Assembly: GCA_944989445.1 (NCBI GenBank)
Contig: CALYLW010000041.1
Span: forward strand, 3,198,454-3,262,453
Length of the DNA stretch: 64,000 nucleotides
From: Ampullaceana balthica
Taxonomy: Eukaryota > Mollusca > Gastropoda > Lymnaeidae
Direction of reading: 5' to 3'
Part shown: positions 4,415 through 59,884 of the stretch, piece after piece
Position numbering within the stretch: the first letter of the stretch is position 1
Layout of the letters: each line of letters starts with the position of its first letter
Translations under genes and position numbers: made by a program
The notes under the pieces: generated by a model
What the model was told of the DNA's origin: nothing
The model's database searches: none
Seen by the model: the letters and a program-made list of their open reading frames with translations, nothing else

Positions 4415-4540
4415 AGTTTACTATTAATTCAGTTTTTTTAAAAGATTTGTTTGAATTAAACGTGTTATTAACAGAACACCAGTATTGCCCTGCATTATGC
4501 ATCTTGCCGTAAGTGAATAACTTGTAAAATATTTGTTTTT
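4415..4540 (-). pseudogene. Gene C exon D6b: second half of I-set-like domain, one base short
   Basis: Acceptor ttgtctcag/AAAAAC, donor AAACT/GTAAGT, 126 bases where 127 is needed for phase 0 to 1. The frame that fits the donor reads KQIFYKLFTYGKMH, then NAGQYWCSVNNTFNSNKS and TELIVN. One more A in the opening AAAAA run restores the match to gene B; alternatively a poor internal acceptor (ttacaag/TTATTC) could be used. Confidence 0.7.
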
Positions 4541-4835: not shown

Positions 4836-5029
4836 ATCATCAATAATATCGTGGGACGAATGATTTAATGCGTTGCCTTCCTCCTTATAAAATAGATCAA
4901 TCCGAGGCTTTGGGTATCCAGTGACGTTGCACCACATAGTTAACTGTGAGCCGGGGATGTACTCATTGGTCGTGTTATCAGGAAGTGGATGAAACTGGAA
5001 ACTTTTAATGACTTGCAGAGCGTTTGGAA
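4836..5029 (-). CDS. Gene C exon D6a: first half of I-set-like domain
   Basis: Acceptor agttttag/TTCCAAA, donor GATGAT/GTAAGT, 194 bases, phase 1 to 0, open. It reads PNALQVIKSFQFHPLPD, then PGSQLTMWCNVTGYPKPRID, a textbook I-set strand B/C region with W-C and proline turn. It is homologous to 45284-45459 of gene B. Confidence 0.82.
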
Positions 5030-5864: not shown

Positions 5865-5960
5865 CTCACCCGAAAAAATACATAGATATATAAAAACAAA
5901 TTTAGCATACACGAAATAAAAAAAAGACCGGAAATACGCTTTAATATTTTTTTTACTTAC

Positions 5961-6252
5961 TTTGAACATCAAGGAAAAAGTGAGATTTTAAGTTATACTT
6001 TTCTGTTACGTGTTGGGCGGAACATGTACATTCACTTCGATGCATGTCTTTATGTACATTAATAGGGATGTTGGAAGATTTCCATTATGTGTATACTTTA
6101 TTCCATTGCAGTAAATTGAGTCCTCATCACGATAGGTTTTCCTCCATTCACCAAACATTTTACAGTGATATTATCATTGTCTTTTACAATCAGCTCTTTA
6201 TCAATATCAGTTCCATTTAACATGGTGAATCTGGGTGGCTTACATGGAGGCT
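5961..6252 (-). pseudogene. Gene C exon D2: B-type Ig-like domain with two frameshifts
   Basis: Acceptor aatgtag/AGCCTCC, donor CAAA/GTAAGT, 292 bases where phase 1 to 1 needs a multiple of three. Frame one reads EPPCKPPRFTM and NITVKCLVNGGKP; frame two reads YRDEDSIYCNGIKY; frame three reads NIPINVHKDMHRSECTCSAQ and HVTEKYN. All three pieces fit the B-type pattern (C, GG-x-P, extra C, C-x-C-S-A-x-H). The breaks lie at an AAAA run and a CTTCC, each explained by loss of one base. Confidence 0.75.
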
Positions 6253-6492
6253 CTACATTTTTTTAAATGTCAAAAGCAATAAATGAAATAATGATATATA
6301 GTAATGAAGAATAAGAATCGACCCGTTTAAGTTAATTAGTACCTTTATCTTTTTGTTTGTTATTAAAATGCCATGATTAAGTAAAATGAACTTTAAAAAT
6401 TACATTTTAAAAGTATTAACGATCGAAAACACATTCTAAAACGAAATGATTAAAATGTGTGTAAGATCAATTACTGTGAATCCCCAACTCAC

Positions 6493-6679
6493 CAAAGGTT
6501 ACATTAACTCGAGAAGATATCATGTATTCAGTTTGGTATGTGTTGTAGTTACTAACATACGGATTCATCTCAACATCGACACCATACTGAGACTCATTTT
6601 TCAGCACAAAACTTGCAAAACATTTCGTTGCAAAGTAACCAGGCTCCGAGGCTTCTTGGTCTTGCGGTGTGTGAGAGAT
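6493..6679 (-). CDS. Gene C exon D1b: second half of an A-type domain
   Basis: Donor CTTTG/GTGAGT; proposed acceptor aaaaaag/ATCTCTC with a poor pyrimidine tract. It has 187 bases, phase 0 to 1, open. It reads SHTPQDQEASEPGYFATKCF, SFVLKNESQYGVDVEMNP and ISSRVNVTF. It aligns with D5b and D1b of gene B around the single cysteine and the NxS sequon. Confidence 0.75.
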
Positions 6680-7870: not shown

Positions 7871-7929
7871 CCTAAATCACCCCATTTCTTTTTTGATTTT
7901 ATAATTAACCATCATCAAATCCTCTTTTT

Positions 7930-9074: not shown

Positions 9075-9199
9075 CCTATTCCACGAGGTCTGATGAATCC
9101 ACGTACATTTTGATCCCGGATCTGATTTGTTTACAGGACAAAGTATGTTAACATGACTCTCAACGAATTTGTATTCACAAGGAATTTTCTCCGAAAGCG
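9075..9199 (-). CDS. Gene C exon D1a: first half of an A-type domain
   Basis: Acceptor tgtttcag/CGCTTTC, donor AATAGG/GTAAAC, 125 bases, phase 1 to 0, open. It reads LSEKIPCEYKFVESHVNILC and then SKCTWIHQTSW: the clearest A-type signature in the window. Its partner half is 2.4 kb away, beyond a block of repeats (7200-8540). Confidence 0.8.
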
Positions 9200-13761: not shown

Positions 13762-16700
13762 CTGTAAAGAGAAGCACACGTTAAATTTGAAATTATAATT
13801 GTTTATATTTTATTAAAAAAACCACATTCATATATTTAATATTGAGCACCAAAAAAAACCAACATATCAATGGGATTCAGTCACAAATGTTTTTATAAAA
13901 TTATAATAGTTTGAAGGGATTATTCCTTATTTTTCGTGTATAGCGAGTTATCATTTTTTACAGAAACGTAAACTATAAATTTTCTCAAAAAAGTTACCAG
14001 AAAAATTTTCTAATACCAAATATGTAATTCAGTTTTAAAAAGTTAACTAAAGGTATGTTTATAGTTAACGACTATTGCTAATTAAGAGTTTATATCTTAA
14101 AATATTCTTTGCTTGACTCCCAAACCTGGCATCCGAAATTAATAACGTTACTTTTATATGTATATACACATACACTACTATTGAATACTTTTAGACAATC
14201 CATTTATAATTAAGAACACGGATTGAAATTAACGGTATATAGGTTCTGAGGATATTAAAATAATGTTATGCTGTTATATACATTAAAAAGATATCAATAT
14301 TTAAAAAAAATTATTACATTTTATATACACTGTGCTACAAATTCCCTCCTTTATTCTTTATGAATTTGATTACTTTCATTAATTGGTTTCTTTTCTTCTA
14401 ATTTTACGACTTAAAGATAAACATGTATCTTACCAACAGACCAACATCGTTATTATAGACATTGTTGCTCTTCAAGTGTTCTTTATGGGCATTTTCTAGC
14501 AAAAGTGAGAAAAACCAATAATGTTTAATTTTTAACAATACAAATAGTTACTAACTATGATTATAAACTAATTACTTATTTTCTTAAAACCAAGCTCTTT
14601 GTAAAACATATTAGGACTTTGTTAAACGTAAAGCAATTCGAATACCATACTTTATCCGTCAAAAAGAAATTTATCCAACATGTAACTATTCAATCATATT
14701 TTGTTTTTTGTAGCTTTGAGTTTAAAAAATAGTTGGATGTTAAAAACTTCGTTTTTTTTCTCGATTTAAGTGTAGCGAATAAAATTTTATGAAAAATATG
14801 AAAAAAGAATTTGTTTAAAAAAATTTAAATTCATAATATTATAGTCATAAATTAACTAAATAATAGACTGACAGAGACATGAACCAAATACATTATTACT
14901 GTTCTTTAAAGTTAATGATTACCTTAAACGGAATTAATTAAAGTTTTATTGTTTTCCCTAGTAAGTGTAGCTAAGCCGACGTTAAAAAAATAACACCTAC
15001 ACATAAGACATTCATCACACAGAACATACAAGTAAGACATTTATGACATAAAACATACAAGTAAAATATTCATATACGAGTAAATGAACACACCGACAGG
15101 TTTCTGAACATTATTATGTCTTCTCCACAGATCTGCCATCGTTACCATCACGAGAATTGCGAGTGAAGATATAGAGATTATGATTGTAACTAGTATCCAT
15201 AGAGTGGAGGATTCTGGTATGAAAATAATTGTAAAACATTGGAATCAATAAATTTGGAATATATTCCAAAACATATTTTTTTATTTTAATTATTACTTAT
15301 CTGAACTTTATTAAATTAATTTTTTTAAAATCAGAAACGTCTTTTAGTAAAAAAAAATAATTGAAATCTCAACTGTAAGAGAAATTATAATTCAGGACAG
15401 CTAAAATTTTGCATGTCACCTGTCATTAATTGCACTTTATGATTCTAATGGACCAATCTAAGATCCCGTTCATGTATAAGCTATCGCTATATTTAGATTT
15501 GTTTATACTGACTGTCTTTTTATTTTTTTAAAGACATCGGCTACACAAATAAATCGAATGTTCCATATCATTGGCGTAACTTTGGTGTGCCATACGCCAA
15601 AAATTTCATGCAAAAGTGTGATGGATGCACCTTTTTTCTAAATAGATCCCTTGACTAAAATGTTAGCGTGATCAAAAATGATATAAAGGTGGCATACTTT
15701 TGTAAAACAAATAAATAATAATAATAAAACGATGCTGTTTCTGTTATGAGACAAGTAAGAACACCAAGTTGTAACCCGTTATAACTGGCGTTAATAGCTG
15801 ATAAAATTAATTTTAATTTAAACAGCCTGAAAAAATTGCAAATACAGGGTTGTGCAATGGAGCCCGTGGGAAAAATGTGGCCCGCCACAGACTTTGTGTG
15901 TGTGTGTGTGTGTGGCCAGCCTAAAATTTCAGATAACTGAGTTTTAATTCATGTCTCAACAAGAAACTTCACTTCCTTCTGATTAAAAGAAGTGTAATAG
16001 GGTGTACTTTTGTAATTAAAATAATTCTATAATTAAATTTGCCAAAAGCTAGAAATCTAGATATTATGGTACAATAAATACATAAATTAAAACTATCTAT
16101 TTGGTTTTATATTTTATTTATTAAATTTAATGATAGCTTTTATATTTTCCTGAAATGAAATGTAACTAATTGTTATAATGATTTTAAACGGTACGGGCCT
16201 CCACTAAATTCCGTAACAAAAAAGTTGCCTCCGAGCTAAAGCAATTGAACACTCCTGGCTTACAACATGAGTGACAACTTTGAAAGAAAGCTAAAAACAA
16301 CAACAACAAAAAATGAAGAAAAAAAAAGATCCGAAACATCTAATTGTTTGTCATAAGAAAATGAACCAACATGTGGAAGAAAATCAGTAGCCCTGAGCCT
16401 AGTGCTCTAAGTGTCCTAAGTAAATACAAATTTCTCTCTGATTAAGCAAGTACAAGCTCTAGAGTATGTTGTTGATTTACCATAGTTTAATTATTGTGTA
16501 ATTTATGAATTTGAAGCTAGGATTCTTACCACAATTTCATTTTTAAAAAAATCGAATTAATCTAATTACAGTAACATTCCGATAATCCGGCACGTTCGGG
16601 ACCGGCTGGGTGCTGGACTATCGGAAATTCAGGTCTATCGGGCGGTGCCCCTTCTTTTTAGTGTACGCTTTGCCGTAAAATATATATACATTGTTTTTTT

Positions 16701-19700
16701 TTAACTACATACACACATAAATCGTAATTATAAGAACAGTTAGGTTAATAATTAAACTACAAATATAGTATGCAAATACAACAAAGTTTATTTCTTTTTG
16801 AGAGTCAGTGTTACGTGTTTTCGTTTCTCTCCTTTGAACTCGAAGGCTTAGGTTTTGAAAACATGGTCACTGTACAGTTAGAACAAAACTCACTTTGTTT
16901 ATAAACAGTTTCAAAAGTTACGTACGTCACTACAGATGTACTGTATTACAGTAGAGAGTACTGAGACACAGTTTACTGCGATGTGAAAGGACACAAAACA
17001 ACTACTCAAAAAATATAGCGAGACGCTTCCCGATTGATTATCTGTGCTGCACTGCACCTGTATTTGTTGTGACAGCTAAGACTAGCCGGCTGCTAATTGT
17101 TTCCGAACAATAGCGAGCGCTTCCCCGAACTACCCCGAAAACTTCCGAATAGCTCTCAAGCGTTTTTATTTGCTTTAAAGACACACTTTTGGAGAAAACC
17201 ACATTTTTTACAATTTTCCGGAGCAATGCCGGACTATCGGGCATTCCGGACTGTTGGATGCCGGATTATCGGACTTTTACTGTACTTGTCTCATAACAGA
17301 GAGGTGGTAAAACTTTGGTATTTCCCTCTGTATATCCGTTGCATGAGATATATTTTTAAATTTTTTTTTACAAACAAAATTGCCGAAATTAGGGCTGAGC
17401 TTGACAGAACGATGTTACCGCCACATAAAGTATCTCCCTCTTTTGCTGAGGTCAAGATTTGACATATTCCAGCCTGCTACGGAAAATGAGGTCAAAGCTG
17501 TTATTCTAAAATCTAAACCAACGTCATGTTTTCTTGATCCAATCTCCATTCCACTATTGGTTGAGTCATTAGATTATCACTCCCAACAATAACATATATA
17601 GTAAATGAGAGTCTAACATCGGGTACTTTTCCAACCTTATGTAAATCTGATGTAATAAAACCCTTGCTGAAAAAAACAAGGGTTGGATCAAAACAATTTA
17701 AACAACTATCGACCTGTGTTCAATATTTCATTTGTATCTAAGGTCATTGAAAAACTTGTCTTAAAACAACGTTTTCTTATTTTAATGACAACTCTCTTCT
17801 AAGTCCCAATCAGTTGGCCTACAGACCTTCTCACTGCACAGAGACCACCCTGTTAAAGGTAACAAATGACCTCCTACTCGCACTAGACAGTGGGAAAATC
17901 TCTATATTTGTCCTCTTAGATCTTCGTGCTGCTTTCGACACCATTGTCCATCAAACATTGCTTAAAACCCTGCAAAATTATTTTGGATTTTCTGGCTCAG
18001 TTCTGGCTTGGTTTCAATCGTACTTATCAAACAGATCACAGGTGATATCAGTAGATGGCTGTATCTCTCACAGATCTGACTTGGTTTATGGTGTGCCTCA
18101 GTGCTCCATTTAGGGTCCCGTACTTTTCGTGCTGTATACAAGGCCACTACTTCTACTGCTCGAAAAGCATTCAGCTAAAAGCCAATCATTTGCAGATTAC
18201 TCAGCTTTACACTCACACTGATCCATCTGATATTGACTTCACTGCCAAATTGATGCAAGAGTGCGTTGGGGAGGTAAAGTCTTGGATGACTTTCAGCAAG
18301 CTCAAACTGAATGATGACAAGACAGAAGCACTCCTATTCTGCAACAATAAATCACGCAGTACTTTGTCTCTTCCGAATTCTATTCAGGTGGCTAGTTCTG
18401 ATATACTGTTCAAAACATCGACTAGGAATCTTGGCTACATTATTTCTGACAATATGTCTACCAACAGCTTCATCAATCACATCTGTCGCTCTGCCTACAT
18501 TGCCATTCGTCAGATCAGCTCAATCCGTCATTACTTAACAGTTAGTGCCACAAAAACTCTAGTCTGTGCTCTTGTACTAGCTCGTATGGATTACTGCAAT
18601 TCTCTTCTGTCAGGTGCGCCAAAACAATGCATTGAAAAACTACAGAAAGTTCAAAATTCAGCTGCCAGATTAGTTCTAAAGGCAAAAAAACATGACCATG
18701 TTATTCCGCTACTTTACTCACTTCATTGGCTACCTATACAAGACCGAATTGATTACAAACTGGCCGTTCTCTGTCACAACTTCTTTTCTGACTCATACCC
18801 TTCCTATCTTACTGAGCTTCTGTCGGTCTACTCACCAAGTCGTCAGCTACGCTCTTCTGCAGACACGCGCATTCTCTGTGTTCCTAAGACACGAACTAAA
18901 ACATTTGGCGAAAGGTCATTCTCTTTTTGTGCAGCCAAACAATTTCGTCCAAAGAAGGTCGGCTTGCGAACGAGAATATACGGTATTTTAATTGTACACC
19001 TTTAACCACCTCTCAAAGCTACCAGTATCAGGATTTTGTAGAGGATCAATGTTAACAAAGCTTTACAATAGCATTTTAGAATATATTTTAGATCCATTAC
19101 GAGTATAAATCAAAACCAAACCTTTGCGCACACCGTATTCCATCAGGTTCTGAAGAGCCATTCGACACTTTACACAGCTGATATTTTCATCTTCAATATC
19201 GTTAATGTTTGTTGTAATATCATAGCAGTACTCTCCGTTGCCTAAAAGGGAATTGAAAACAAAGATTGAAAACGGAACTGATTTTGTTTATATAATACAC
19301 AACAGTTAACTTTTCATATCTGTCAATTATCAAAAATGAGAAAAACAACGCTAGAGGATAATAGGGAAATCTTTATATAACATGCAAAGCTTAAAAAGCA
19401 AACGGTTTAATCTATTAGGATTGTGTAACAGATTTTAAATTGGGATTAGCTTCTGAGAAGTTCAAAGAATTTTTCAATTAGAGTTTGTGTCATAAAACAA
19501 AATGGGTCATGCTAAATTCAACAATTGGCCGAAGAAATATAAATGAACACAAGTTGGTAATGCCTTTATCAGTGGTGAGGTAAAATAAAAACAATTATAT
19601 TAGTTCAGTTAAAATTTTTAAAAATAAATGCTTATGCACACCTACTAATGAACGAATAGAGGAGCATATGAATGGAAATGAAAGTGATACAAACGGAAAG

Positions 19701-44090: not shown

Positions 44091-44152
<62 letters not shown>

Positions 44153-47100
44153 TATAAATATATATATTGCCAAAACTGTACGATTCATTTGTTACAGTTA
44201 ATACACCATTACACATAGTACCTCGAGATACGAATGCTTCAAGATATGAAAGATCCAAGATACGAAAGGCGACGAGAAGAATTTTTGTTTTCAAGATGTT
44301 AAAAAAATCCAAAATACGAAAAACGCACAACTAACACTGGAAATAACGTGACGTCGTTAAACGTGCCACTAACTATTCTGCTCTCCTATTGGTCAATTCT
44401 AGTCCCATTGCTTTGTCGAAGCTATGTGCTCGTGCTTGTCATGCCTGCTTTATTTACCGTGTAGTTGGTTTGGTGTTGTTGTTCTAAATTCGTGAATATT
44501 TCCGTGAAATCTTTAAAAAAGTAGTTTAATGGCCATTGCCTCTAAGAAATCAATAATTAATCGCCTCACTCGAAAAGTAAAAGTTCACATTTGTATACAT
44601 AGTATTTTTCATTTATTTCATTGTGTTTTCATTATTTTATTATAACCTATTTATTTGTTTTATAGTATGTACTTTTAAGGACTGGAGAATTCTACTTTGT
44701 TTTTCTATAGTTACCATAATATTTTCCATTTTTAGTGTAGTTTTTGTGTGGCTTACGACGGATTAGGTATTTTACATGTAAAACATTGTTCGAGACACGA
44801 AAGATCCTAGATACGAAAGCCATCAGGAACGGATTAATTTTGTATCTCGAGGTACCAATGTATAAGATGTAACATTTTCTATCCCTTCACTTGATATCAT
44901 GTTTGTTTCAATTTTTAAAAGTTTATAGTCATAATAAATTGTTTTCCAAAAAAGGCTTTTTCTTTAAAAAAAATATTACGTTCAAATAGGAGAAAAATTT
45001 CATTTAAGAAAGCTGTGAACAGAATGATGTTGCGTATTAAATTTCAGCCATTAAAAAAAGTGGTTGTCATGATTGGCTAATTAAATGTTGGATTTGGTGT
45101 AAAAGCGTCAATTGAAAGGAAATGAATTAATCAGAGCCTAAAAAATCAGTACGCCCTCATAAATAGCTGTAATTTAGTGAATAATTGACAAGAATATTTT
45201 TAAAGTAACCAAAAATAGCTGATTCATAAATATTCGTAAATAAGAGAATCCTTATTTTTCAAAGATGTATTTTGTAAACTTGCCTGAGCTAAATCTTTAT
45301 TTTCCCCGTATGTATATGTCGATGTAATCATTATGGAAGGCGGGGGAGATCTAGATGCTTGACATAACAACCTGTAACTTGATCCAGCTGTAACTTCAAC
45401 AGGGTCATATAAAGGTGTTTTATCATCGAGAACTGTGAAACTTGTTATTTGTGCAGGACCTTAAATTAATAGAATTTCTATTATCATTAAATTCACCCGG
45501 CTCGTTTTCTTTAAATTGAAAAAATATATATATTGTACAATGTACACATATATATCCTACAAGAAGAGAGGTTCAAAATTAAATCTACTAAGTAACCACG
45601 TTAGTTACTAAGGGGCCGTCCATAAATGACGTCACCCACCTAGGGGGGTGGGGGTCACACTTTTGTGACGATGAGTAACGAGGGGGAGGGAGAGGGGTTG
45701 ACGAAATGTGACGTCACATCAAAAGGGTAACTTAAAATAAAACTTCCACTGAAACATCACAGAAAGGATACTTGATACAGTCAAGCCATGTGGACTAAGA
45801 TTATTGTCACTCATGTCGATATAAATGAAAGTAGGGTGGATTTAGGTCTCTACGTATAGTGCGTAGGTAAGAAATCTACATAGTAGTCAAATTTTTAAAA
45901 ATGCATTTTCTGGAAGGAACCGGTTCAATAGTGGGCATATGATCGAAGCGTATACGTACAAATTACGGTACTCATGACGTATTTTAATATATCTAGTGGA
46001 TTGAAAATGTTTTTTTTTAAATTTATAATAAAATATTGTTGTTGTTTTTTTTTGTTTGGGGGGAGGTCAAAGCTTTGTGACGTATTTTTGGAGAGGGGGT
46101 CTAACTCCTTGTGACGACGCCTGACGAAGGGGGGAGGGGTGAAAAATCGTCTAAAATCGCGTGACGTCATTTATGGACGGCCCCTAAACCCCACACAAAG
46201 AAAACATTAGTAGGTAACATGAGTAAAATATACCAAATAATTATAAATTGACTACTGGCTACAAATAATTAGTTTGAAAGCTGCAGTGATGTAAGCCCCC
46301 TTCCTTTCACTGAATTTGTTTCTTTCTATTGATGCTTCAAAATCTTGACAAACATTTGTTTGGCCAGAGGGCCTTCATTGACTCAAAGTCTGTTGAATCG
46401 GAGCTTTTAGCGATCAGAGACTACTGACTATACTCAAACTTTAGAATTATTTGCTGAAAAATTGGTAGTTGCTACTTGCTTATTAAAAAAACCTGCCTCG
46501 TATTCATTTAAGTTTTGTTCCCCTTGACTTATTTGATATTTCGTGACAAATCGTATAATCATGACTTTTTAAAATTATTCTCTTATTTGCTCGAGGAATT
46601 ATCTACAGTGATAGCGTGTTGTTACCGTCATAACTTCAAATGTGTTAAATATAAAAATAATAATAATCCTCCTGAACGCTTATAAAAATATATGTATTTA
46701 TAAATAAATCCATTTCATGACCGTTGTATAATTATTTAACCCAGATGAATGACGAATTTACGACATGTATCCATTATATTGTGATGACTTGCACAATATC
46801 CGCACTGCGCAGCTGCGAAGTTGGAATGATGTAGAGATTGAAACCCACGTAGGAACTGTCTTGAACATAGGCCCATAGGTAACATATAGCATTAGAAAAC
46901 TAAATGTGGCGTTTAATATTGGCGTCACACCACCAAAATAGTACGCTCGTTGGTTTTGGCAAGCGCTGACAAGCCCTCCACCAAACGATGGGGCCATCAA
47001 TAAAATAAAAATTAACTTTATGAACTTTTCGACCACTGTGACCGTAAAGGGTAAAATATCAAAATGAAACCTGCTAAACTTTTGGAAATCATGATAAAAA

Positions 47101-50100: not shown

Positions 50101-53100
50101 GCTGGTGCCTTGATATTGTTAATATATATCGCAATATAACACTAAGTGACATAAATGCACACATTTTTATCCAGGCAGTATTGTTAAGTCTAGTTTTCAA
50201 AATAATTTATAAATCTGAATATAACATTGTTTTTCAACATACCAACATCAAAATATAGTTGTGTACTTTTAGTAACAAAACTCAAGTTCAAATTTGATAT
50301 TTGTAGGTTTGGATACATGTCCACATAAATTGTGAACATTGATGAATTTTCAAGTGCCAGAATGATGGAGCATGTAGTTTCGTAATATTCGTCGTTCCAT
50401 TTATAGTTATATGGATTTTGTCGTATACTCTTTGTGGCTCTTTGTAACTAAACAATAAGAAAATAAATACATATATTAAAAATCACTATAAACTCTGTTT
50501 TAAATGCTCAATATCAGACTAATGTATGTCTTGTTTTCCAAATGGCAGAATAATTATGTCCTAATATATTCACTAAGCTTAACTGGTAAATTGTTCGTAG
50601 AAACCTTTGAACAAAATTAAAAGGCAGAGCCTTTCCTCGAAAACAAATAAAAATTTGCTAAAAGTTTGCCACGCGAAATTATAAAAAAAATATTTGTAAA
50701 ACCAAAAATCATTAATAAATCAATCGAAATAGTCAACCTTAATTACGTCAAGAAAGGCTTGTAGAAGGGGGGCAGACTAAAAAATCATTAGAATGTAATG
50801 TAATGTTTGAATTTCTGAAGTACATTTAGAAATGCCTTTTATAAAGACATTATAACCTCTTTAAAGATCTATATTTCTTGAAGGGATATATACATTTTAA
50901 AAATATTTGTACCAAAAAAGTAGGAAGTTTATAAGGTAATACACAACATGAGACTATTTAACAAATGTAATAACAGGCTGGCAGCATGGTTAGAAGTACA
51001 AATAATTTTAATTAATTAAATAAATCTTTCAACTTATTGTTTGATTTTACAATTTTCCAATTGTTGAATATTTAGGCTCACCAAAAGTAACTTATAATAG
51101 AAATAACAAGCAAAAAGAAATTCCGAGTTGGTAAGGTAACTTCGGTACAATGTTTTAAAGAAAAAAGCTAAATTGTCAGATTTATGGTAGAAAGAGTTGG
51201 TGGGTTAAGTTTTTATGTTAATTCTAGTGAATTTTAATAATATTTTTCCATGGGATATTTTAATTTGTTTTAAAATCATTATGAAGAAAGTAATAATAAT
51301 ACACTACTTCACTTGCCACATAGACCGTCATGGTCTGAAGGGGTATTATTATTATTATTATTATTATTATTTATTAAGAAAGTAGAAACATGAGTCTAAA
51401 ATCACTGCAAAAAATGTGTTTAAATTAATGTTTGGACATTCTTACAAAAGTCAATTATATAAATATAAATTTATTATTTATTATTTAACTTAATTAATAA
51501 TTTACTGGGATCTGAAGTAGGGGTTTTTAGTTTCTTGCCAACGGCTTTGTACTTATAAATTTCAGTATGATTGAGTTCATCCGAACTGTTTTATAAAACA
51601 GACTAGTATCTATTTGGGAAAGTTTCACCGTAATATAAGGATTGAAAAACAAGAATTGTAAGCTTGATTAAAATTTAACAATGATGTGATTATATACATA
51701 GTCAAGATTTGCTATATGATATTCATTGATTCTAAATACGGTGTCCCAAAAATTAAGCGAATGCTATCTTTAAAAACCCGAATATGCATTAAACATATTT
51801 TTAATTAAAAATTCACTTATTAAAACTAAATATTTTGTTTCAAACTTGTCAATATCGCTATAAAACTAGGAATATTCAAAATACAAGGATCAGTCGCATA
51901 GTATTTAAAATTTTAAAAGCCTAAGTTTTGAAACACATGAAGGTACTGTACACATCCTATATAATAAAAGGCTATGTTCTGTGCGGTCATCGATAGCGAT
52001 TGGTCCCTCAAACACATAGGAGTCACTCCTACAGGCAATCATATCGATCCCGTTATGCGGACGTTCAAAACGAGTTGTTTTTGGTGCAGTATTTCTTCAA
52101 AGATTTTATTCTGAGTTATGCGTGTTTGAAATTATTGTAAAAAGTGTATTTTTAAGAGTTTTCTATTTTAACTATAATGAATAGTATTTTTGACGTGATT
52201 CACATGTATGCCTGTCGAGACGGCTGTTGGAGAGGGAATTACAACATGCCACCGAACGGTGGGGGAACGTCCTTGGACGGGCTTTGTTGCTCGTATCTAA
52301 TGACTTACATTCTTTAAGATGGAGATGCAAAATTATGATAAATAGTCTAAATTATTTTACTATTGTTAGGACAACTATAAAAAGACGAAAATAATAATAA
52401 TATATATAGATTTTTCGCTATTCGCAACATATTTTTAAAATACAATTTTTATAAATATAAAATGCATTAATTTAATTTACAATTTTTTGCTAGAGTTTTC
52501 ATTGCATACCTCTAAAGTATAAATTGGGTGAGAAGTCATCCAACTGCAGTTAGCTTGGGGAAAAACCTTAGACGTAGAACAAGTTATGTTGACATGTGTT
52601 GAATTGAAGACATTTTCACAAACTGGATTTTCTGGAGTAACTGATAAAATATCAATTTCCTTTATATGTTAAAGCGTATACATCTTAAAGATTGTCATTT
52701 TTTTAAAAAATGCATGATCTTTTAGACAAATTAAATAAAATCAAATTTGTTCTTCATAAAAACTCAAATTGCTAAAATTAAATAAAAGATTAAGTGCATT
52801 GTTTACAGTTACTCATAAACATCTCGACTCTATATGAGCGGCATGATACAAACATGACTTAAAATAGTACATATTTTCAAACTGACATCAGACCTTTTTT
52901 TAAAGAATAAAATTAAAATTATAATTTGACTGAATGTTCTTCTAAAATAAACATGGCTATTGCGTAAAATGACGAAAATGTATCTGGGAGCTGGCAATGA
53001 TATTACTTCAACTTTGGTCAGAAAATTTATCTGAGAGAGCTGTCAATGATATAGCATCAGCTTTTGTTAAAATCGTTGAAATGATAACTGAATAAGATAA

Positions 53101-56100
53101 GGACATTAAAAAACATTGTAAATTGGAGTGATTCATGTGTATCAAAAAGCATAAATAGCTTAATAACATATGCTCTTCTTCATGTTTTGATCACACATCC
53201 ACACATTTAGTCATTCATGATGAAATTTAGTGTTAAAAATAAATAAATAAAACTTCATTGAAAAGATATATAAAAATATTGTGTGTCTTTTATTAAATAA
53301 AATCCTTTGTTGTAATGTCATTTTGTATTTATACTTCAGTAATGGAGATCTTAATAAAGAATGTGTATTTTTTCTTGAAAGAAACGTTTATAATTATAGC
53401 GTGAAAAGGCATAGAATATTGTTATAATAAATTGAAATTTTATTTTCAGAATTGAAAGATTCTATTAAAGTTGTTTTTTTTAAATTCACAGAAAATCTAA
53501 ATTAACACAAAAAAATAATTAATTCAATGGTAATACCATACATTGATGATACAAACAGAAAACAACAACTTGGATAAAAAAAACATCTTTTGTTGGTCGT
53601 AGCCAAATATCAAATTTTCAAACGTAAATAACTCCGTTCGACTAAAGGTCACATAGAACCTTGTTACTCTAGGTTGCGATTTATAAACAAGTATGTACAA
53701 TTTATTAATTTAACTATTTTAAAAATCAGTTTACACATTTACTTAAGTAAACGTATGTATTTGTTTAATGTTTAAGCTTTGTGAAGGAGTCTGTTAGGAT
53801 GTGAATAGGTCAAGGGAGTTTGGAACATGATGGAAAAATTCGTGAACTTTTAAACTCTTAACTAAATACACATCTTTAAAAATGTGGCATTAAACAATCA
53901 TTGCTAAAATATTTTTAAAAAAACCAAACAAACAAATGCATTTGCTTATATTAATGATACCCACCTGTAACATTTATTATTAAACTAGTTATCAACCTTT
54001 GCTTTAATGAAACGTGGCCAACCGAGCAGATACACTGTTTACCATGATGGGATCTTCCAACACGAAACCCTTTAGTGGCGCGATGCCATGAGATGGATGG
54101 GACATCATTTGGACAGTTTATTTGTATGTCTGTTACTTTAGGCCAACCCCCGATGGAAGAACAACTTAAATAAATCCATTCTTTATCCTTTACTATAAGA
54201 AATAAATCAGTTACAATTCCGTTGTTATAGTCGACATGTAATTTTGGCTGTTGTGGGATTTCTGGAAGAAATTTTGAAAAAAAAATTCTTATTGCAAAAT
54301 AGAATCAAAAATTTATTTTTTAAATGTTTTCTTTCCAATCACTAATTGATAAGGTTAAGGGCTATAGCTAAATCTTTTTGAAAAGATTTTTTAATTTTAT
54401 CGCTTCTCTCCAAACGTTTTATCTCAAACAAGTGTTTTGATATTTTCGTTCCATGTAAATTGTGTAAACATTGTATTTAAGTAGTTTTGCTTTTTATAAT
54501 GAAAGAAACGAGCAAAAAGAAGTTTTAAAAGTTTTTCTATTCCAGATAAAATTATGCGCACTAGATACATGAGAATAATTTTAACATCCTAAAATGCATT
54601 ATTGTTAAAAATAATGTGTATAAATACTTTTTGAAAAAAAAACTATTTTATAAACAATTCAGTTTTGTCTACTTTATAATCTGCTTTGGCCGAAAAGATG
54701 TCTCATTTATATCTTTAAATTGAATGTACAAAATTGTCACCTTTATGAGCATTTTAAAATAAAAATAAATACATACATCTTTTTATATTTGAACAGAAGT
54801 TTTGAACTTTTCAGAAGCCAATAACAGTGTGTGTCAAAATTCAATTAGCTTTTTTTAAAAATATACTAATTATAAAGCTACCCGAACATGCTACGAATAG
54901 GCCCGAACGACTTTGCAGTTTTGTTGTATCAAATTTAAAAAAAAATATGGCAAAACACAGAAACAATAGAACCAGTTGGAGCACAATTAAAAACAAAATT
55001 TACCTAAAACTTTTAAAATGGATTTATTAAACTACCAATTGATGAAAGTAAATTTAATAAATATTGAATATTAGATAAGATTACCACGTTACCGCAGCAT
55101 TTATCCACCTAAAATAGCCTGCCTCCAGTATTAAAACAACGTTGTATCAGCAAGTAGATAATGGTTGATATACAATAAAGAACACCAAATTAACAATTGT
55201 CAAGGCCAGAACTCTGGCATAAAACAATCGCAAAAAAGATGTTTGTAAATAATATATAATAAACCAACGTAACTGACTATCAAAGATTTTATGAAAACTA
55301 AACTTTTAACATGTGAACAAAAACAATCATTTTTCTTGGGATAGATATTGTAGCTGGATGTATCGCTGTAAAATAAGACATATGTTTATTGATATTAAAA
55401 CCCTACTCACATAGCAATAATCATATATTGACGTTAAACTATGTGTATCGCTGTAAAATAACACATTTGTTTATTGATATTATTTATTGATATTAAATGC
55501 TACTCACATAGAAATAATCATATATTGACGGTAAACTCGTAGAATAAAATTTAAAGTAAAATCATTTTCTTATCCCATTATAACCAAGATTTTTACTTAC
55601 CTACTATGTTAATTATTAAAATTTGTTTAATCTCATCTGAAAGGTGTAAAGCTGTGCATATGCATTTTCCTTTATCCATATCCCTTTTGATTTGAATTGA
55701 CAACGTAACAGTCTCTCCCCTAGATGTTTTCCTATGCTGTTTGTTTAAACACTCAAGTGTTATTGATGTAATGCGTGGTATTCCACCTTTGGCATTACAC
55801 GTTAAAACCACTTTGTCGTCATGCTTTACAAACAAATCTGTACCAATAACTTTATCTTTATCATCAATCGATAAGGACACCTCTGGCTTTGCTTAATATA
55901 TAGAAAAAAATGATATTTTTTTTTAAAAATCACTCTTAATTAAGCGTATATGAAATCTAATAATTTCGTATACTTTTAATATCTTTGTTTCATAGTAAAT
56001 GGATCAAGAGTTATACACGTACAAGTTGTAGTAATTAGCAAGAAACATAAATTCGCTCTTTCTTATGCAATAATTTTCTTACATATATTTGTTTTTAAAT

Positions 56101-56885
56101 AATTTGGACAATGTCATATTAATATTTTGAAATAAAAATAATAAACGGTTATTAGGAAAATAATATGTAGTCATTTATGTTTATTTCTTAATAATGAATA
56201 AATTTTACACATCCAAAGAAATAACACGGTTTATTGTTCATTGAAATACATCTACAGTGCACGAGTACTTATGTAGCTAATTTCATTACTAACCCGTGAG
56301 GTAAACTGTCCGGGCTTCAGAAGATATTTCTTCTCCTGAAATATGTTTAGCTGAACATCGGCACATTTTTCTATCCATTGATCTTGAAATAGGAACATTG
56401 AAAGTTTCTTCCTGACAATAACTATTCCTCGACACACCTCCACATTTAAGTGTAATTCTGCTTTCTTTAGGACTCCCACCAAAAGATGAGCACGTTACGG
56501 TTATGTTATGGTCTTCTGTAACAAAGAGCTTGGCTTCTGTTAATACTGCATTTGATACACTCATTGTTAGGTTTTGTGGAATTTCTGTAAAAGAGAATTA
56601 AAAAATAGCATTTAAAGTCATTGATTATTTAATGTTTTTGTTAATAAATATGTTGAAAGATGAGTTAGACCCGAATTAAAAAATAAAGTTTTAAATGTAT
56701 GTTTCTATTGTATAAAGTATAAATGGACAGGATTTTGAATATTCAGTATGTATTCCTATATTATCTCCCCCCCCCCGCCCCACAACCCCAAACCAACCTT
56801 GAACAATAATAACAAATAGTCACAGATCTTGTAAAAAAGTTTGACACATTTAAATACAACCTCACACAATGATAATAACTTTAGC

Positions 56886-56916
<31 letters not shown>

Positions 56917-59884
56917 AAGCACTAATGTTTCTAAATTCTTCTTAAAAATTTATAACACACTAAGTATAGAATTACTTCACCTTTGTCAAAGATATAATTT
57001 CTATAGAACAGTGGCTATAACTAAGGGTAAATTCACCCAATTTGAGACAAAATAAAATAACACAAATTTTGATTTAATGCTATATTTAGTTATCGTTTCA
57101 TTTTAATTAATTTTTTGGATGATTGGCCCGTCACATGGACCTGCTTTGTGGCTAAATGAATCCCCGGCTATAGCGCTTCCGACAAAATACGTCCCGACCT
57201 AATGAACACATAGAAATGAAACATCGAGAGAATGAAAAGGAGGATTTTCGTATGTGTAAAATCTTTTTTGTTGTGTACTTTAGCTATTGCTAATAAATTC
57301 ATGATTATTATCATTATATCATCTGAAATTTTTACTGGTGAACTAACTGGGACTAATATTTTAAGACGACACGATGATTTCGATGCAAAATTGACTTAAT
57401 TTACTATTTCTGTATTTCTGTATTTCTATTATGCCATTTCCGATTAGATTTGAGTCAGCCAGTTTAGAGTGACTCACCCCCAAGTCAAATTAATTTTTAT
57501 AATTTGTGACGGATGGAGAGTGAAGAAATAATTCCTAGACGGTCCTCTTACTTTAGCATTAATGAATGTATTCTTTTACTTGGGGAAATGTTTATTACTG
57601 GTTCCATTGTCGGTGGTTCTTTTGATTTAAAACATTTTTAACAACACATTTTTAAAAGAATATGTTTCATTTGTTGAATTAGTTTCGTGCATTAATTCTC
57701 TTTAGAGTGACGATGCAGCCACGCAATAAGAGTTAATAATACCTATCCAATAAAATGTATTAAGATCAAACCACCTGGCTCTAAATTAAAATTTCTTTTT
57801 TTTTCTGACAAGCATAACGCGGTAGGCCAAAACATTACCGTCACTGTATTCCCACATAATTATTACGACTGTCAATGGTTGCATAAATAAATGGGCGATA
57901 CCAGAGACAAACGACTCTGTCTGTTATGTCGTCGAATTAATGCTTCTCCCCTAACGCCAATAATATGGCCCCGTGGGTATATGGCCCTCGACCAAAAATA
58001 AAGAAACACAATTATAAATACAATATCAATTCATAGACTATTTTCACTCCCTTTTTTAGACATACCATGTACTTTAATTAGGGACGCACAATTTTTGGAA
58101 CTCATCCAGAAATTATTTTAGGATACCACGTCAGTTCATTTTACTAAGTAATGTATTACAAGGGATGAAACCAATCCACACATAAATAATATAAAAGCCC
58201 AAGTCACTCATTTGCTCACTGGATGTGGACCGATATGACGTAATTGTTTGATCTTATATTTTAATTCCAAGTGTGCAATCAAGAGGTGCGCAAAATAATT
58301 GTAAATTACAGATTCTCGCAGAAAAAAATTATATGACGTCGTTGTTTTAGCTTATAATTTAATTTTGGAAAAGGGTACAATGTAAAAATAGGATTTGAGG
58401 ATTGTTAATTATAAAATACTTTCTGTACATTTCAGAAATTTAAATATTTCGTATTTATCAAACAAGGATAATTTACTTGGGCTTTTTACCCCCCAAAAAA
58501 GTGTGCGCCTTAGGCGCCCTACAAACCATATTATAAAATACTTTGTGTACATTTCAGATTAATATTTTGTATTTATCAAACAAGGATAAGTAAGTTGGGC
58601 TTTTGAAAAAAGTGGGCAACGTAGGCACCATGGCACCCCAGCGCAACCTAGTAAAATCATATTTTATAATTAAATTGCCTTAGTACACAGCCGAAAAGTG
58701 TACAGAAACTCCTTCCCACCATTCAATTTCTACATTGTTCGGCTACGGGCGGTCCTAATGATGGATAGCCTTTATGTTCATCGGTAGGGGAGTGCCTATT
58801 TTCGTTCGTCCGATTTACTTTTAGAGCTACTACATGTGGAAGAAAACAGTAGCCCTGAGCCTAGAGCTCTTCATAGGTCTCCCCGGAAAGTGCCTCCAAG
58901 CCACCCTATCCCCAAGGAAACCTAACATCTGAGAGACCCCCCGACCTCGAGGGCATTGTCGAAAATGCCTCCCACTAAGAATGACCTAATAAGTAGGTGT
59001 GGAATTTTCCTACTTTGACTCGCTACAACTTTGGTGCCAATCCGGCTACCTTATCACGGCTGCCGCTTGGAGTGGGGTGGGGGGATCTTCAATGAACTAC
59101 CTAGGGTGTAACGCCTACTGGAAGGTTTCCTCAGAGCTGGCGTCCGCTAAGTTATTCATGGCACCTATTGCTAATTCGTACTGGCACTCCTGCCCCTAAA
59201 CAAGTAAGGCTCCCTGGGATCTGCTAATGTTTGGGGCGAAACGGTCGCTTCGGAAAACTCGACCCTCACGGGTACTTTGGTTTTCATCATCGGCATTGCA
59301 TCTATTACTCTGCCTAAGAACAGTACAGCGACTGTAATCATATATGTCTAGCATACACACCTAACCGGACTTCGGCATTGCCAGCCACGTGCTGTTGATT
59401 TCGGGCTGCAGTCAGTTACGCTACGCTACTCGTGCTCCGAGTAATGTAGAGGCCATCCCTTCTCGGTAAGGAACTACCCTTTCACAAGACCAAAATTTCG
59501 GAATCGTTGTTTGCAATAAATCTGATTTCAGTTTTAGAAATCTTGCGCCCTCTAAATCCCCTTACATGTTAACAAACAAATGAACCTTCCATTTTTAAGC
59601 ATGTGTCATCCTTTATTTGATTACCTATAATTTATGTTTTTATATGTTTTAACTATAGTAATAGTCATGTTTAAATATTAAGCCTTACTTATTTCTAATT
59701 CAACTTCTCTACTTTTGCTAACAAAGTTCACTTTAGGATCACTTTCATTAAACACAGAAGGAAACACTTGCAGGGACACTTTGTGCTTTCCTGGTCTTAT
59801 GTTGTCTAAATATGCGTAACATGTTGTGAAGTAAAAACTTCCATCTCTTGAAAGTTGGTTTGTTTGAAGCCCTTGAATAGTACT
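35166..59884 (-). CDS. Gene B: IgSF/FN3 transmembrane receptor with ITIM-like tail (14 exons, 5'-partial)
   Basis: Fourteen minus-strand exons join in one uninterrupted frame of 895 residues plus stop (2688 coding bases). Visible order: D1b (residues 1-65), Ig-like D2 (66-162), D3 (163-259), D4 (260-358), split D5 (359-470), split I-set-like D6 (471-571), FN3 (572-671), transmembrane helix (about 679-705), tail to 895. Every domain starts and ends in phase 1; the split domains carry an internal phase-0 intron. The tail has tyrosines at 738, 784, 808, 855, 870 and 883; 855 (LTYVSV) and 883 (VEYMDI) fit the ITIM consensus. This implies a type I surface receptor that recruits SH2 proteins when phosphorylated; that role is inferred from motifs. 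The signal peptide and D1a are not visible and should lie beyond 59884. Unlike genes A and C, it shows no frameshift. Confidence 0.85.
35651..35744. repeat. (TG)n then (AG)n microsatellite in last intron of gene B
   Basis: A run of about 12 bases of TG is followed by about 82 bases of uninterrupted AG on the plus strand. In the gene B transcript this reads as about 41 CU repeats, roughly 245 bases upstream of the acceptor of the ITIM exon. Confidence 0.95.
36236..36303 (-). CDS. Gene B tail exon T3
   Basis: Acceptor tttcaaag/GAAACTC, donor TCAAAG/GTACGT, 68 bases, phase 1 to 0. It codes NSGGALTNKPTDCVYNNLTSSK. Tyrosine 808 in VYNNL fits Y-x-N and Y-x-x-L. The gene A counterpart (14434-14495) has SNNVYNNDVGLL at the same place and the same phase 1/0 borders, so the two exons are homologous. 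Confidence 0.8.
36647..36757 (-). CDS. Gene B tail exon T2
   Basis: Acceptor ttgcttag/GTAACAG, donor ACTG/GTATGT, 111 bases, phase 1 to 1, the same length as T1. It ends DKGEVYANVVKVET; tyrosine 784 lies in Y-A-N-V, which fits the Y-x-N pattern bound by GRB2-type SH2 domains and also Y-x-x-V. Binding is inferred from the motif only. Confidence 0.75.
37885..37975 (-). repeat. tRNA-like SINE head
   Basis: On the minus strand, GCACGAAGTCAATAGGCG resembles a degenerate A box and GCAGTTCAAGTCCCAG a near-canonical B box, with about 45 bases between. This is the layout of a tRNA-derived SINE promoter. It lies in the T1-T2 intron of gene B. Confidence 0.5.
38595..38705 (-). CDS. Gene B tail exon T1
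   Basis: Acceptor gttcaag/TATGGAA, donor ATGA/GTAAGT, 111 bases, phase 1 to 1. It codes VWNSGIKFKPREHT and then ENSLYTDST; tyrosine 738 is not in an ITIM context. Being in-frame and symmetric, it could be skipped without shifting the tail. The polypyrimidine tract is weak, so the acceptor is less certain than the donor. Confidence 0.7.
38848..39115. mobile_element. PIF/Harbinger-like MITE, 268 bp
   Basis: Ends are GGGGCCGTCCATAATGTACG and, reversed, GGGGTCGTCCATAAAGTATG, flanked by TAA at 38845-38847 and 39116-39118. The three-base TWA target duplication and GGGGCC ends fit Harbinger. It lies in the TM-T1 intron of gene B. Confidence 0.85.
39583..39723 (-). CDS. Gene B exon: transmembrane helix and stop-transfer
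   Basis: Acceptor ttttaaag/GATTTTC, proposed donor GTCG/GTACTG, 141 bases, phase 1 to 1. It codes GFSSGSSALID, then a hydrophobic stretch (IITWSVTCVLALLTLG, then IIAGIII) and RRRLRS as stop-transfer. If the donor is not used, the frame runs on only five residues to a TAG at 39566-39568, giving a receptor with a tiny tyrosine-free tail. Homologous placement of the donor in gene A (15094) supports the spliced form. Confidence 0.85.
40538..40837 (-). CDS. Gene B exon: fibronectin type III domain
   Basis: Acceptor ttcctcag/GTCCACC, donor GCAG/GTCAAG, 300 bases, phase 1 to 1, coding about 100 residues. FN3 hallmarks are visible: PTDVIIQNI, strand-B MLTISWRPGFNGG with the conserved tryptophan, and the strand-F LYVLSIETEN tyrosine motif. 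Five or more N-x-(S/T) sequons occur (NIT, NVT, NSS, NVT, NGT). It is the membrane-proximal domain. Gene A has no FN3 exon; a short cysteine-bearing stalk takes its place. Confidence 0.88.
42741..42867 (-). CDS. Gene B exon D6b: second half of the I-set-like domain
   Basis: Acceptor ttttag/AAAGAGG, donor AAAT/GTAAGC, 127 bases, phase 0 to 1. It contains IGTYTCSVKNRFNSES, the standard strand-F G-x-Y-x-C motif, and ends NIFVKMK. Gene C (4415-4540, GQYWCSVNNTFNS) and gene A (19889-20015, GTYICLASSYLN) have the same exon. The final T joins GT of the next exon to make a cysteine codon. Confidence 0.85.
43213..44160. repeat. (TA)n microsatellites flanking a hAT element
   Basis: About 85 bases of TA precede and about 60 bases follow the hAT-like insertion; they were probably one tract before insertion. 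Confidence 0.9.
43298..44093. mobile_element. hAT-like element inside an (AT)n microsatellite
   Basis: Ends TAGGGCTG and CAGCCCTA, with many subterminal TTAACGATTAAT motifs in both orientations, flanked on each side by long (TA)n (43213-43297, 44094-44150). The microsatellite hides any eight-base duplication. A second inverted pair, ATGTTCCCTCTAAG and CTTAAAGGGAACAT (about 43557-43718), marks a nested short element. Confidence 0.75.
44212..44860. mobile_element. Mariner/Tigger-like non-autonomous element, 649 bp
   Basis: Ends CACATAGTACCTCGAGATAC and, reversed, CATTGGTACCTCGAGATAC, flanked by TA (44210-44211, 44861-44862). It lies in the D6a-D6b intron of gene B. No transposase frame remains. 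Confidence 0.8.
45284..45459 (-). CDS. Gene B exon D6a: first half of an I-set-like Ig domain, GC donor
   Basis: Acceptor taatttaag/GTCCTGC, 176 bases, phase 1 to 0. It begins PAQITSFTVLDD and carries GSSYRLLCQASRSPPPS, a normal strand-B cysteine followed by a proline-rich turn. The exon ends GCTCAG and the intron begins GCAAGT, the classical non-canonical GC-AG donor; no GT fits the phase. Its partner exon in gene C, 4836-5029, uses an ordinary GTAAGT. Confidence 0.82.
45612..46184. mobile_element. PIF/Harbinger-like MITE, 573 bp
   Basis: Same family as 38848-39115: ends GGGGCCGTCCATAAATGACG are perfectly repeated in inverse at the right, flanked by TAA (45609-45611, 46185-46187). It sits 150 bases upstream of exon D6a of gene B. 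Confidence 0.9.
47330..48021 (-). repeat. R1 dispersed repeat, copy 2
   Basis: Reverse complement of the R1 unit: CCACATGTGG end at 48013-48021, ggtttcctcagagctggtgt near 47670, and the gaagcgaccgtttcgtcccc block near 47550; it extends through a cattgcctgccagg region to about 47330, like copy 3. It lies in the D5b-D6a intron of gene B. Confidence 0.75.
48019..48092 (-). mobile_element. Inverted Helitron-like 5' terminus
   Basis: The reverse complement reads TCTATACTAATGAAAGGC after an A, then a CTCA-rich tract (gagtgagtgagtgag on the plus strand). It is head-to-head with the element starting at 48153, 60 bases apart, and is cut short by the R1 repeat to its left. Confidence 0.5.
48153..49560 (+). 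mobile_element. Probable Helitron-like element, 3' end not defined
   Basis: It starts TCTATACTAATAAAAGGC after an A, the same head as 51955. The body to about 49560 holds repeated blocks such as tgatggcccata/ctaaaattctatagga and several ggccgggggcc motifs (48318, 48950), suggesting internal duplication. No convincing CTRR end was found. Confidence 0.45.
50243..50447 (-). CDS. Gene B exon D5b: second half of an A-type split Ig-like domain
   Basis: Acceptor gtttag/TTACAAAG, donor GTTG/GTATGT, 205 bases, phase 0 to 1. It includes YYETTCSIILALENSS, FTIYVDMYPN and NLSFVTKSTQLYFDV. It is homologous to D1b (59689-59884) and to 6493-6679 of gene C. The single conserved cysteine is the expected partner of a cysteine in D5a. 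Confidence 0.85.
51305..51370 (+). repeat. Truncated retroelement tail with (TTA)n end
   Basis: Cacttgccacatagaccgtcatgg is followed by ggggtattattatta; it matches the reverse complement of 21600-21650. It lies in the D5a-D5b intron of gene B. Confidence 0.55.
51955..52300 (+). mobile_element. Helitron-like non-autonomous element
   Basis: It begins TCCTATATAATAAAAGGC after an A, ends CTAA before a T (A/T insertion point), and has an inverted motif CGTCC-TT-GGACG 18 bases before the end. TC start, CTRR end, 3' hairpin and A/T target fit Helitrons, though the hairpin is short. It lies in the D5a-D5b intron of gene B. Confidence 0.55.
52510..52640 (-). CDS. Gene B exon D5a: first half of an A-type split Ig-like domain
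   Basis: Acceptor tatcag/TTACTCC, donor TTAGAG/GTATGC, 131 bases, phase 1 to 0. Its sequence shows the A-type signature: cysteine in PVCENVF, HVNITC, then ANCSWMTSH. The same spacing is seen at 22373-22503 (gene A) and 9075-9199 (gene C). NST and NIT are possible N-glycosylation sites. The four-residue C-x-x-x-F start and the C-x-W following the strand-B cysteine differ from ordinary V-, I- and C2-set domains. Confidence 0.85.
53965..54261 (-). CDS. Gene B exon D4: B-type Ig-like domain
   Basis: Acceptor cttccag/AAATCCC, donor ACAG/GTGGGT, 297 bases, phase 1 to 1. It begins IPQQPKLHV and carries IYLSCSSIGGWP, IQINCPN and QCICSVGHVS, ending LIINVTG. It has the same cysteine skeleton as D2 and D3, with a tryptophan in the GG-x-P turn and an NVT sequon at the end. 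Splicing to D5a completes a valine codon (G plus TT), which supports the join. Confidence 0.85.
55601..55891 (-). CDS. Gene B exon D3: B-type Ig-like domain
   Basis: The acceptor is ttaag/CAAAGCC; the nearby caaag is out of phase. The donor is GTAG/GTAAGT. It has 291 bases, phase 1 to 1, the same length as D2. It begins KPEVSLSIDD and carries VVLTCNAKGGIP, SITLECLN and GKCICTALHLS. The intron separating it from D2 is only 402 bases, one of the shortest in the gene, consistent with recent tandem duplication of single-exon domains. Confidence 0.85.
56294..56584 (-). CDS. Gene B exon D2: B-type Ig-like domain
   Basis: Acceptor ttttacag/AAATTCC, donor CACGG/GTTAGT, 291 bases, phase 1 to 1. The domain begins IPQNLTMSV and carries VTVTCSSFGGSP, RITLKC and a terminal MCRCSAKHIS. 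This repeats the layout of D3 and D4: a strand-B cysteine, a GG-x-P turn, an extra cysteine, then C-x-C-(S/T)-x-x-H in place of the usual D-x-G-x-Y-x-C. The start IPQ also matches D4 (IPQQPKLHV), which suggests exon duplication. NIT, near residue 37 of the domain, is a possible N-glycosylation site. Confidence 0.85.
56766..56916. repeat. Poly-C tract and (AAT)/(ATT)n
   Basis: A C-rich run (ccccccccccgccccac) at 56767-56783 and an inverted AATAATAATAAT/ATTATTATTATT block at 56886-56916, in the D1b-D2 intron of gene B. Confidence 0.85.
58380..58650 (-). repeat. R3 repeat, inverted copy
   Basis: Tatttatcaaacaaggataa, followed by acttgggctttt, then aggcgccct occurs twice (58455-58525 and 58565-58625), the reverse complement of R3. 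It lies in the D1b-D2 intron of gene B. Confidence 0.7.
58829..59465 (+). repeat. R1 dispersed repeat, copy 3
   Basis: It opens ctacatgtggaagaaaacag, continues with the gtgccccggaa-like and ctggaaggtttcctcagagc blocks, and ends near gtaatgtagaggcca, the counterpart of gcctctac at 47330. It lies in the D1b-D2 intron of gene B. Confidence 0.75.
59689..59884 (-). CDS. Gene B exon D1b: second half of an A-type split Ig-like domain
   Basis: Acceptor ccag/AGTACT, donor ATAA/GTAAGG, 196 bases, phase 0 to 1. It reads STIQGLQTNQ, then FYFTTCYAYLDN, and ends in KSREVELEI. It aligns with the second half of D5 (50243-50447) and with 6493-6679 of gene C. The matching first half, with the C..F..VNI.C..C.W pattern, should lie upstream, but only AT-rich intron-like sequence is seen to about 60240 before the C/A block begins. 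Confidence 0.8.

Follow-up and report, generated by a model that had tools for sequence, protein, structure and literature searches.

Vertebrate receptors of the SIRP, KIR, LILR, Siglec/CD22 and PD-1 type join immunoglobulin (Ig) ectodomains to tails of the ITIM/ITSM type, and several are encoded in tandem arrays; the ITIM follows the consensus (S/I/V/L)xYxx(I/V/L), with ITSM and Grb2-binding (YxN) sites having consensus definitions of their own, and CD22 mixing ITIM with Grb2 sites. Among invertebrates, the Botryllus fester co-receptors and Hydractinia Alr proteins are likewise IgSF families, encoded in gene complexes and bearing motifs of the ITIM/ITAM type (PMC12065747; PMC11999971): Botryllus FcoR genes encode ITIM and hemITAM tails, such motifs also occur on Hydractinia candidates (PMC12065747), and the Alr family, cited in a review, numbers 41 genes (PMC11999971). 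As described in these papers, both serve colonial allorecognition and carry other ectodomains (V-type Ig, sushi). The same review cites the oyster molluscan IgSF receptors IgIT and CgIgIT2, with five Ig domains and a tyrosine-motif tail; its text calls the motif an ITAM, whereas the titles it cites describe an inhibitory function of the receptor in haemocytes, and its passages on these proteins make no mention of fibronectin type III (FN3) domains or of arrays (PMC11999971).

Among gastropods, the PTC1/PTC2 and other TM1 clusters of Biomphalaria encode hyperdiverse single-pass proteins, some with Ig and FN3 domains; the word ‘tyrosine’ occurs 0 times in the main texts that describe them (PMC7494358; PMC10875847). 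The snail FREP/CREP (VIgL) families, also gastropod IgSF immune genes, are defined by a fibrinogen or C-type lectin domain accompanied by one or two Ig domains. Clusters of snail Ig/FN3 transmembrane genes are, in other words, already known; the part that appears undescribed is an array with a conserved ITIM-type tail, since the open-access literature (outside which subscription papers mostly lie) yielded no report of one, nor of any gastropod ITIM receptor.

The locus considered here lies in Ampullaceana balthica (assembly of 1.097 Gb in 3,363 contigs). The window—the whole stretch of DNA that was analysed, C41:3198454-3262453—forms the final 64 kb of a 3,262,453-base contig and carries gene B, gene A and unit C, all on the minus strand (Table 1). 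We read it, with a probability of about 0.68, as part of a tandemly duplicated gastropod family of type I IgSF receptors whose tails are of the ITIM type, predicted from sequence to act as inhibitory or threshold-setting receptors via SH2 proteins. As judged from the predicted proteins, the features of the family are a signal peptide (in unit E and a Lymnaea homologue, and in unit D by alignment), three or four recurrent Ig types and one transmembrane (TM) helix.

Table 1. Features of the array in window coordinates; negative values lie to the left of the window.
Unit	Feature	Position	Strand	Remark
B	N-terminal split Ig-like domain, second half (Ig-a type, phase 0-1)	59689..59884	-	first half past usable contig end
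B	single-exon Ig-like domain Ig-b 1, phase 1-1	56294..56584	-	
B	single-exon Ig-like domain Ig-b 2	55601..55891	-	Ig_3 E 0.0026
B	single-exon Ig-like domain Ig-b 3	53965..54261	-	supported by family profile and splice sites, without an individual Pfam match
B	Ig-a first half, phase 1-0	52510..52640	-	
B	Ig-a second half, phase 0-1	50243..50447	-	
B	Ig-c first half, I-set type, inferred GC donor	45284..45459	-	Pfam Ig_3/I-set
B	Ig-c second half	42741..42867	-	
B	FN3 domain	40538..40837	-	PF00041 E 7.8e-08; 34% to P0121
B	transmembrane exon	39583..39723	-	
B	cytoplasmic exon 1	38595..38705	-	open frame, matching phases
B	cytoplasmic exon with EVYANV (YxN type)	36647..36757	-	
B	cytoplasmic exon with CVYNNL (YxN type), phase 1-0	36236..36303	-	
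B	last coding exon, LTYVSV and VEYMDI 28 residues apart, stop codon	35166..35408	-	
A	Ig-a first half	22373..22500	-	
A	Ig-a second half	21821..21956	-	
A (region)	coding-like phase 1-1 segment with HYNIV	20929..21099	-	
A	Ig-c second half	19889..20015	-	
A	candidate stalk exon	19122..19241	-	splice sites and codon score only
A	transmembrane exon	15094..15213	-	
A	cytoplasmic exon with NVYNND (YxN type), phase 1-0	14434..14495	-	top-scoring candidate between TM and tail; phases as in B
A	last exon, LVYVSV (ITIM) and TNYTEI (ITSM-like) 28 residues apart, stop codon	13513..13761	-	
C	Ig-a first half	9075..9199	-	
C	Ig-a second half	6493..6679	-	
C	Ig-b exon with frame changes	5968..6256	-	extent of matches
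C	Ig-c first half	4836..5029	-	
C	Ig-c second half, start one base off expected phase	4415..4540	-	
C	Ig-d first half, matches P0121 and D	3875..3990	-	ends inferred from splice sites
D	unit	about -3.2k to -19.7k	-	profile searches
E	unit	-27.1k to -38.7k	-	profile searches
	lone Ig-b	-81.8k	-	profile searches
	two frame-broken FN3 copies	-91 and -92k	-	profile searches
F	unit	-128k to -144.6k	-	profile searches
F	tail	-154.6k (C41:3043838)	-	

Working through the three units of the window, we see that exon phases recur: split Ig domains are built as 1-0 / 0-1, single-exon Ig domains, FN3 and TM exons as 1-1, and the tail exon is entered at phase 0. Acceptors are AG at all 25 exons checked, and donors GT at 22 of the 23 internal exons checked, the remaining one being a GC in gene B. 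The outermost exons named in the original prediction are present at its two ends, an Ig half-exon starting with base 59884 (a CAG acceptor before it) and the second Ig-c half of unit C finishing with base 4415 (a GTAAGT donor next). In tblastn comparisons the Ig-a exon of B matches that of C at 4e-6, the Ig-a of A matches that of C at 3e-5, and the tails of A and B match each other at E ~1e-6; shared phases, domain types and strand across A, B and C, as well as an ITIM-like last exon with paired motifs in both A and B, were all features that the original prediction had put forward and that we recover. That the exons of A, B and C might be parts of unrelated genes is ruled out by the exons they share and by the Lymnaea protein introduced below.

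Gene B, once re-spliced, encodes 902 aa, close to the 895 residues first proposed, in the order half Ig-a, three Ig-b, Ig-a, Ig-c, FN3, TM, cytoplasmic exons and tail; its product has Pfam matches to Ig_3, I-set and fn3, those to Ig_3 and fn3 lying above the cut-offs. A scan found no signal peptide for gene B, the 5' end of which lies beyond the contig end and is missing because the contig finishes in A/C-rich sequence, and a profile search returned no significant homologue of its cytoplasmic exon 1. The A/C-rich tandem sequence itself occupies 60387-63171 and may be either an assembly end artefact or a satellite; the last 4 kb of the window are 68.7% GC with a GC skew of -0.93.

Gene A runs Ig-a, half Ig-c, candidate stalk, TM, YNN exon and tail, and its exon model is incomplete: neither an FN3 nor a YAN exon was found, and the signal exon scan gave a weak candidate at 23911-23833. 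Domain number does vary between units, as anticipated, and the second Ig domain assigned to gene A has no clear first half in the profile search (just 20420-20388, at E 3.1). The nearby HYNIV segment, which we considered as another tail, has no homologue in the array by profile search. An intron of gene A also holds plus-strand fragments of a LINE reverse transcriptase (17751-19005), to which a minus-strand fragment at 29566-29820 is related; a protein search gave 1,168 relatives of this LINE at E <= 0.001 and, among the matches listed (best 120 of 1,168 inspected), the only animal-named one is a Littorina saxatilis protein (58%), with three further organism names being bacterial labels (Gammaproteobacteria, Thiolapillus), so the element is a weak pointer to a gastropod.

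Unit C is probably a pseudogene: TTG stands where the start codon should align, frame changes break the Ig-b exon, and neither the profile search nor tblastn with the Lymnaea protein matched an FN3, a TM or a tail in it; its indels could be assembly errors. No signal peptide was found for it. Its first Ig-d half is 49% identical to residues 518-569 of the Lymnaea protein (tblastn, E 2e-08, over 4039..3869).

The family does not stop at the window. To its left, where 150 kb were examined (214 kb with the window), the array runs on for ~155 kb, with units D, E and F and several remnants on the same strand, the tail of F beyond the examined stretch coming from the genome search with the A tail, so that the expectation of further copies on the neighbouring scaffold is borne out. 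All family-profile matches at E<0.003 are on the minus strand, as are 50/50 matches, some of them mutually overlapping, from tblastn of the Lymnaea protein against the 214 kb at E<0.01, in keeping with the tandem, same-strand arrangement proposed. FN3 is present in B, D, E and F, and TM exons were found in A, B, D and E; the signal exon scan finds that of E and misses that of D, for which the ATG frame comes from alignment to E.

How secure are the domain assignments? Those of Ig-c and FN3 are secure at the sequence level. For Ig-b, Ig_3 scores at E <= 0.5 in 6/9 members, with 1.3e-4 the lowest value, and the profile finds ICAM-1 as its top PDB match (E 0.0018), with SIRP-alpha (2wng) at 0.024 among generic Ig matches; AlphaFold, run on three Ig-b rows, gave no usable model (mean pLDDT 38). 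Ig-a is only marginally recognisable as Ig, the best PDB match of its profile being CD276 at 0.018. Insofar as the suggested likeness to SIRP, KIR or LILR is taken as sequence homology, we see none beyond the generic Ig fold in the Pfam and PDB profile searches.

Independent support comes from another snail. A protein search with the cytoplasmic region of E returned one match at E <= 10 (33 candidates), an annotated but unnamed Ig-like domain-containing protein of Lymnaea stagnalis (hereafter P0121; 990 aa, E 3.5e-17), thereby supplying a molluscan homologue, a search of mollusc proteomes being one of the checks proposed with the original prediction; the corresponding search with residues 360-902 of B gave none at E <= 0.001 among the 7,999 best candidates scored. 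P0121 aligns with spliced E at 45% identity over 426 ectodomain positions and 40% over 346 FN3-TM-tail positions, in the same order, the search models of E and D each being short of one exon that P0121 indicates (E ~-28047 to -28208; D ~-4096 to -4269) and that of D also of its Ig-d exons. P0121 has a signal peptide, the same order of Ig types, Ig-d, FN3, TM, YANV and IYNN motifs and the pair LIYLSV...TEYMTL, 28 apart; it differs from the array in that identity over long stretches is 40-45% and the YNN unit is in four copies. Being annotated independently by others with the same order, it confirms the gene model and shows that our exon chain is not a splicing artefact. In an FN3 tree of five rows P0121 falls together with D and E, apart from B and F (100/99), so that at least two lineages are older than the split of the two snails; a tree of the tails has long branches and no starred branch.

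The tail is well kept. Across the family (A, B, D, E, F and Lymnaea) its exon reads RTVS..GL.Y.SV followed by a second Y..(I/L) motif, and in 6/6 tails the two tyrosines are exactly 28 residues apart across a linker that differs. The first motif fits the strict ITIM consensus in all six (LVYVSV, LTYVSV, LIYLSV); of the forms taken by the second, VEYMDI and VEYMSI are also strict ITIMs, with TNYTEI, TEYMAL and TEYMTL having T at -2 and being ITSM-like. Four tails (A, B, D and E) were each shuffled 100,000 times: two such motifs arose in 0.3-0.6% and a motif pair 28 apart in 0.006-0.013%. Because the genes are related, they do not count as independent trials, and the weight of this result rests on the pair being conserved among paralogues and in a second snail. 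All five tails found in the array (A, B, D, E, F) carry the inhibitory-type pair, none of them being of an activating type. Together with the Lymnaea homologue and the single TM, these five tails uphold the central claim of the original prediction, an invertebrate (here molluscan) IgSF array whose tails bear inhibitory-type tyrosine motifs in pairs.

YxN motifs precede the pair: EVYANV and CVYNNL in B, NVYNND in A, HIYANL and NIYNNV in E, NIYNNQ and VVYANV in F, QIYANV plus four IYNN in Lymnaea, and QIYANF in D, in which the tyrosine of the YNN motif is gone. This part is not strictly kept, given that loss and a D/E dN/dS of 1.58 for the YAN exon (few sites). Against 20,000 shuffles of the cytoplasmic parts of B, E and Lymnaea, to which this comparison was confined, YxN counts gave p values of 0.12, 0.029 and 0.0003 respectively, and YxxI/L/V counts 0.0075, 0.001 and 0.035.

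The DNA of C, D and E aligns in blocks of >100 bases at 68-82%, introns included, and hence points to tandem duplication; between A and B we find one 40-base match and between C and B two (65 and 96 bases), likely repeats. A Nei-Gojobori comparison of D with E over ten exon pairs gives a pooled dN/dS of 0.45 (dS 0.375) for six ectodomain stretches including FN3, which are 64-76% identical, and values of 0.20 for the TM and 0.26 for the tail, the latter 91% identical. Pooled cytoplasmic exons stand at 0.62 (dS 0.155), above the ectodomain, with the YNN exon having a dS of 0. These substitution patterns indicate that D and E are coding genes under overall constraint with a well-kept last exon, the proximal cytoplasmic exons not being clearly constrained.

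Under the preferred reading, ligand binding by a diverging ectodomain would cluster the receptors, a Src-type kinase would phosphorylate the tails, and a tandem-SH2 phosphatase (SHP-2/corkscrew type) would grip the spaced pair, so that haemocyte activation is lowered or retuned; Grb2/Drk-type adaptors may be recruited to the YxN sites nearer the membrane. Duplication and divergence would in this way supply many outer faces to a single inner signalling module. Spacing of this kind suits tandem SH2 domains, and the mixture of ITIM and Grb2 sites recalls CD22; the array is unlike the vertebrate receptors in having FN3 and in that no activating partners are seen. A genome search for Y_phosphatase gave 152 matches, which alone does not single out SHP-2. 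If the tail recruits a phosphatase, this would be inhibitory immunoreceptor logic, with fixed motif spacing, in the form of an expanded snail gene array: another independent case of diverging IgSF ectodomains coupled to a conserved ITIM module, besides the allorecognition loci of cnidarians and tunicates and the NK receptors of vertebrates. It would also provide concrete candidate genes for haemocyte thresholds and parasite compatibility, in a family that the annotated Lymnaea stagnalis homologue opens to testing in a laboratory snail. A bolder form, in which the locus is an NK-receptor-like complex, a birth-and-death ITIM family whose 28-residue pair and YxN sites set haemocyte thresholds and so decide compatibility with self, symbionts and trematodes, we regard as a long shot.

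Other accounts of the same data deserve weight. ITIM-like motifs are also found in non-immune proteins, a point that we count against our reading, and adhesion molecules often combine Ig, FN3 and TM; the PDB sequences that best match the Ig-c/FN3 part are indeed titin, Robo2 and contactins, and those that best match Ig-b are ICAM-1 and roughest. Locally expanded adhesion or neuronal receptors, whose tyrosine tail regulates adhesion in the manner of PECAM or SIRP and which have no immune role, are thus conceivable, but we think them unlikely: tandem duplication, probable pseudogenes and neighbouring ectodomains as similar as those of D and E are more usual in recognition families, and the tail pair is kept at a fixed spacing. 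The same distal pair, with its Y..(I/L/V) core, S/T/I/V/L at -2 in 6/6 tails and constant spacing, makes it improbable that the tyrosines are simply endocytic or adaptor (Grb2) sites in activating or scavenger-like receptors, even though YxxL/I/V also fits AP-2 sorting signals and YxN has multiplied in Lymnaea (the four IYNN units of P0121 having the lowest p in the YxN shuffles).

Lymnaeids host trematodes, and the array might instead be a cluster of polymorphic single-pass transmembrane genes (PTC/TM1 type) that govern resistance to trematodes, its products activating cells or serving in recognition alone rather than inhibiting. The hyperdiverse TM1 clusters of Biomphalaria sudanica encode Ig, FN3, C-type lectin or TMEM154 domains, and a protein linked to PTC2 is annotated with an SHP2-interacting adaptor (SIT) domain (PMC10875847). 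Scanned against Pfam, B (at E <= 5) and P0121 (at E <= 1) gave no C-type lectin or TMEM154 match, and we hold this account to be distinctly doubtful; with no fibrinogen match in those scans either, B and P0121 do not have the domains that define the FREP/CREP families.

Relatives also occur elsewhere in the genome, all counts being lower bounds as only the best candidates were scored. The tail of A has at least seven matches, the five at E<0.05 all on the minus strand of C41 (3043838-3233795; E from 4e-48, for A itself, to 0.012) and weaker ones on contigs C971 (E 2.6) and C3305 (E 7.2); the tail of E finds the same five C41 places plus at least C1283 at E 7.4. P0121 has at least 49 matches, 19 on C41, 14 on C2704 and 16 on other contigs. 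Those on C2704 form a second family cluster (4934-32877, plus strand), which may carry the array on from where C41 stops or may represent a different haplotype; genome searches with the A and E tails gave no tail match for these copies. Of the 16 on other contigs, eight weaker P0121 matches in the FN3 region (29-32% identity) are spread over ~420 kb at C401:472573-893886, perhaps another large receptor array. The distant tail exons at C971:130709-130852 and C3305:2856-2999 carry LIYVSL or LIYLSL, INYSTI and DIYQNI, with a PVYVNT frame nearby; on C971, LIYVSL and INYSTI are 27 apart and DIYQNI follows, and by motif content the two appear to be a further ITIM-like tail family. Finally, C51:98378-139952 has dozens of Ig_3 matches, many equal-scoring and at ~1.37 kb spacing, a pattern indicative of a tandem array of near-identical Ig exons.
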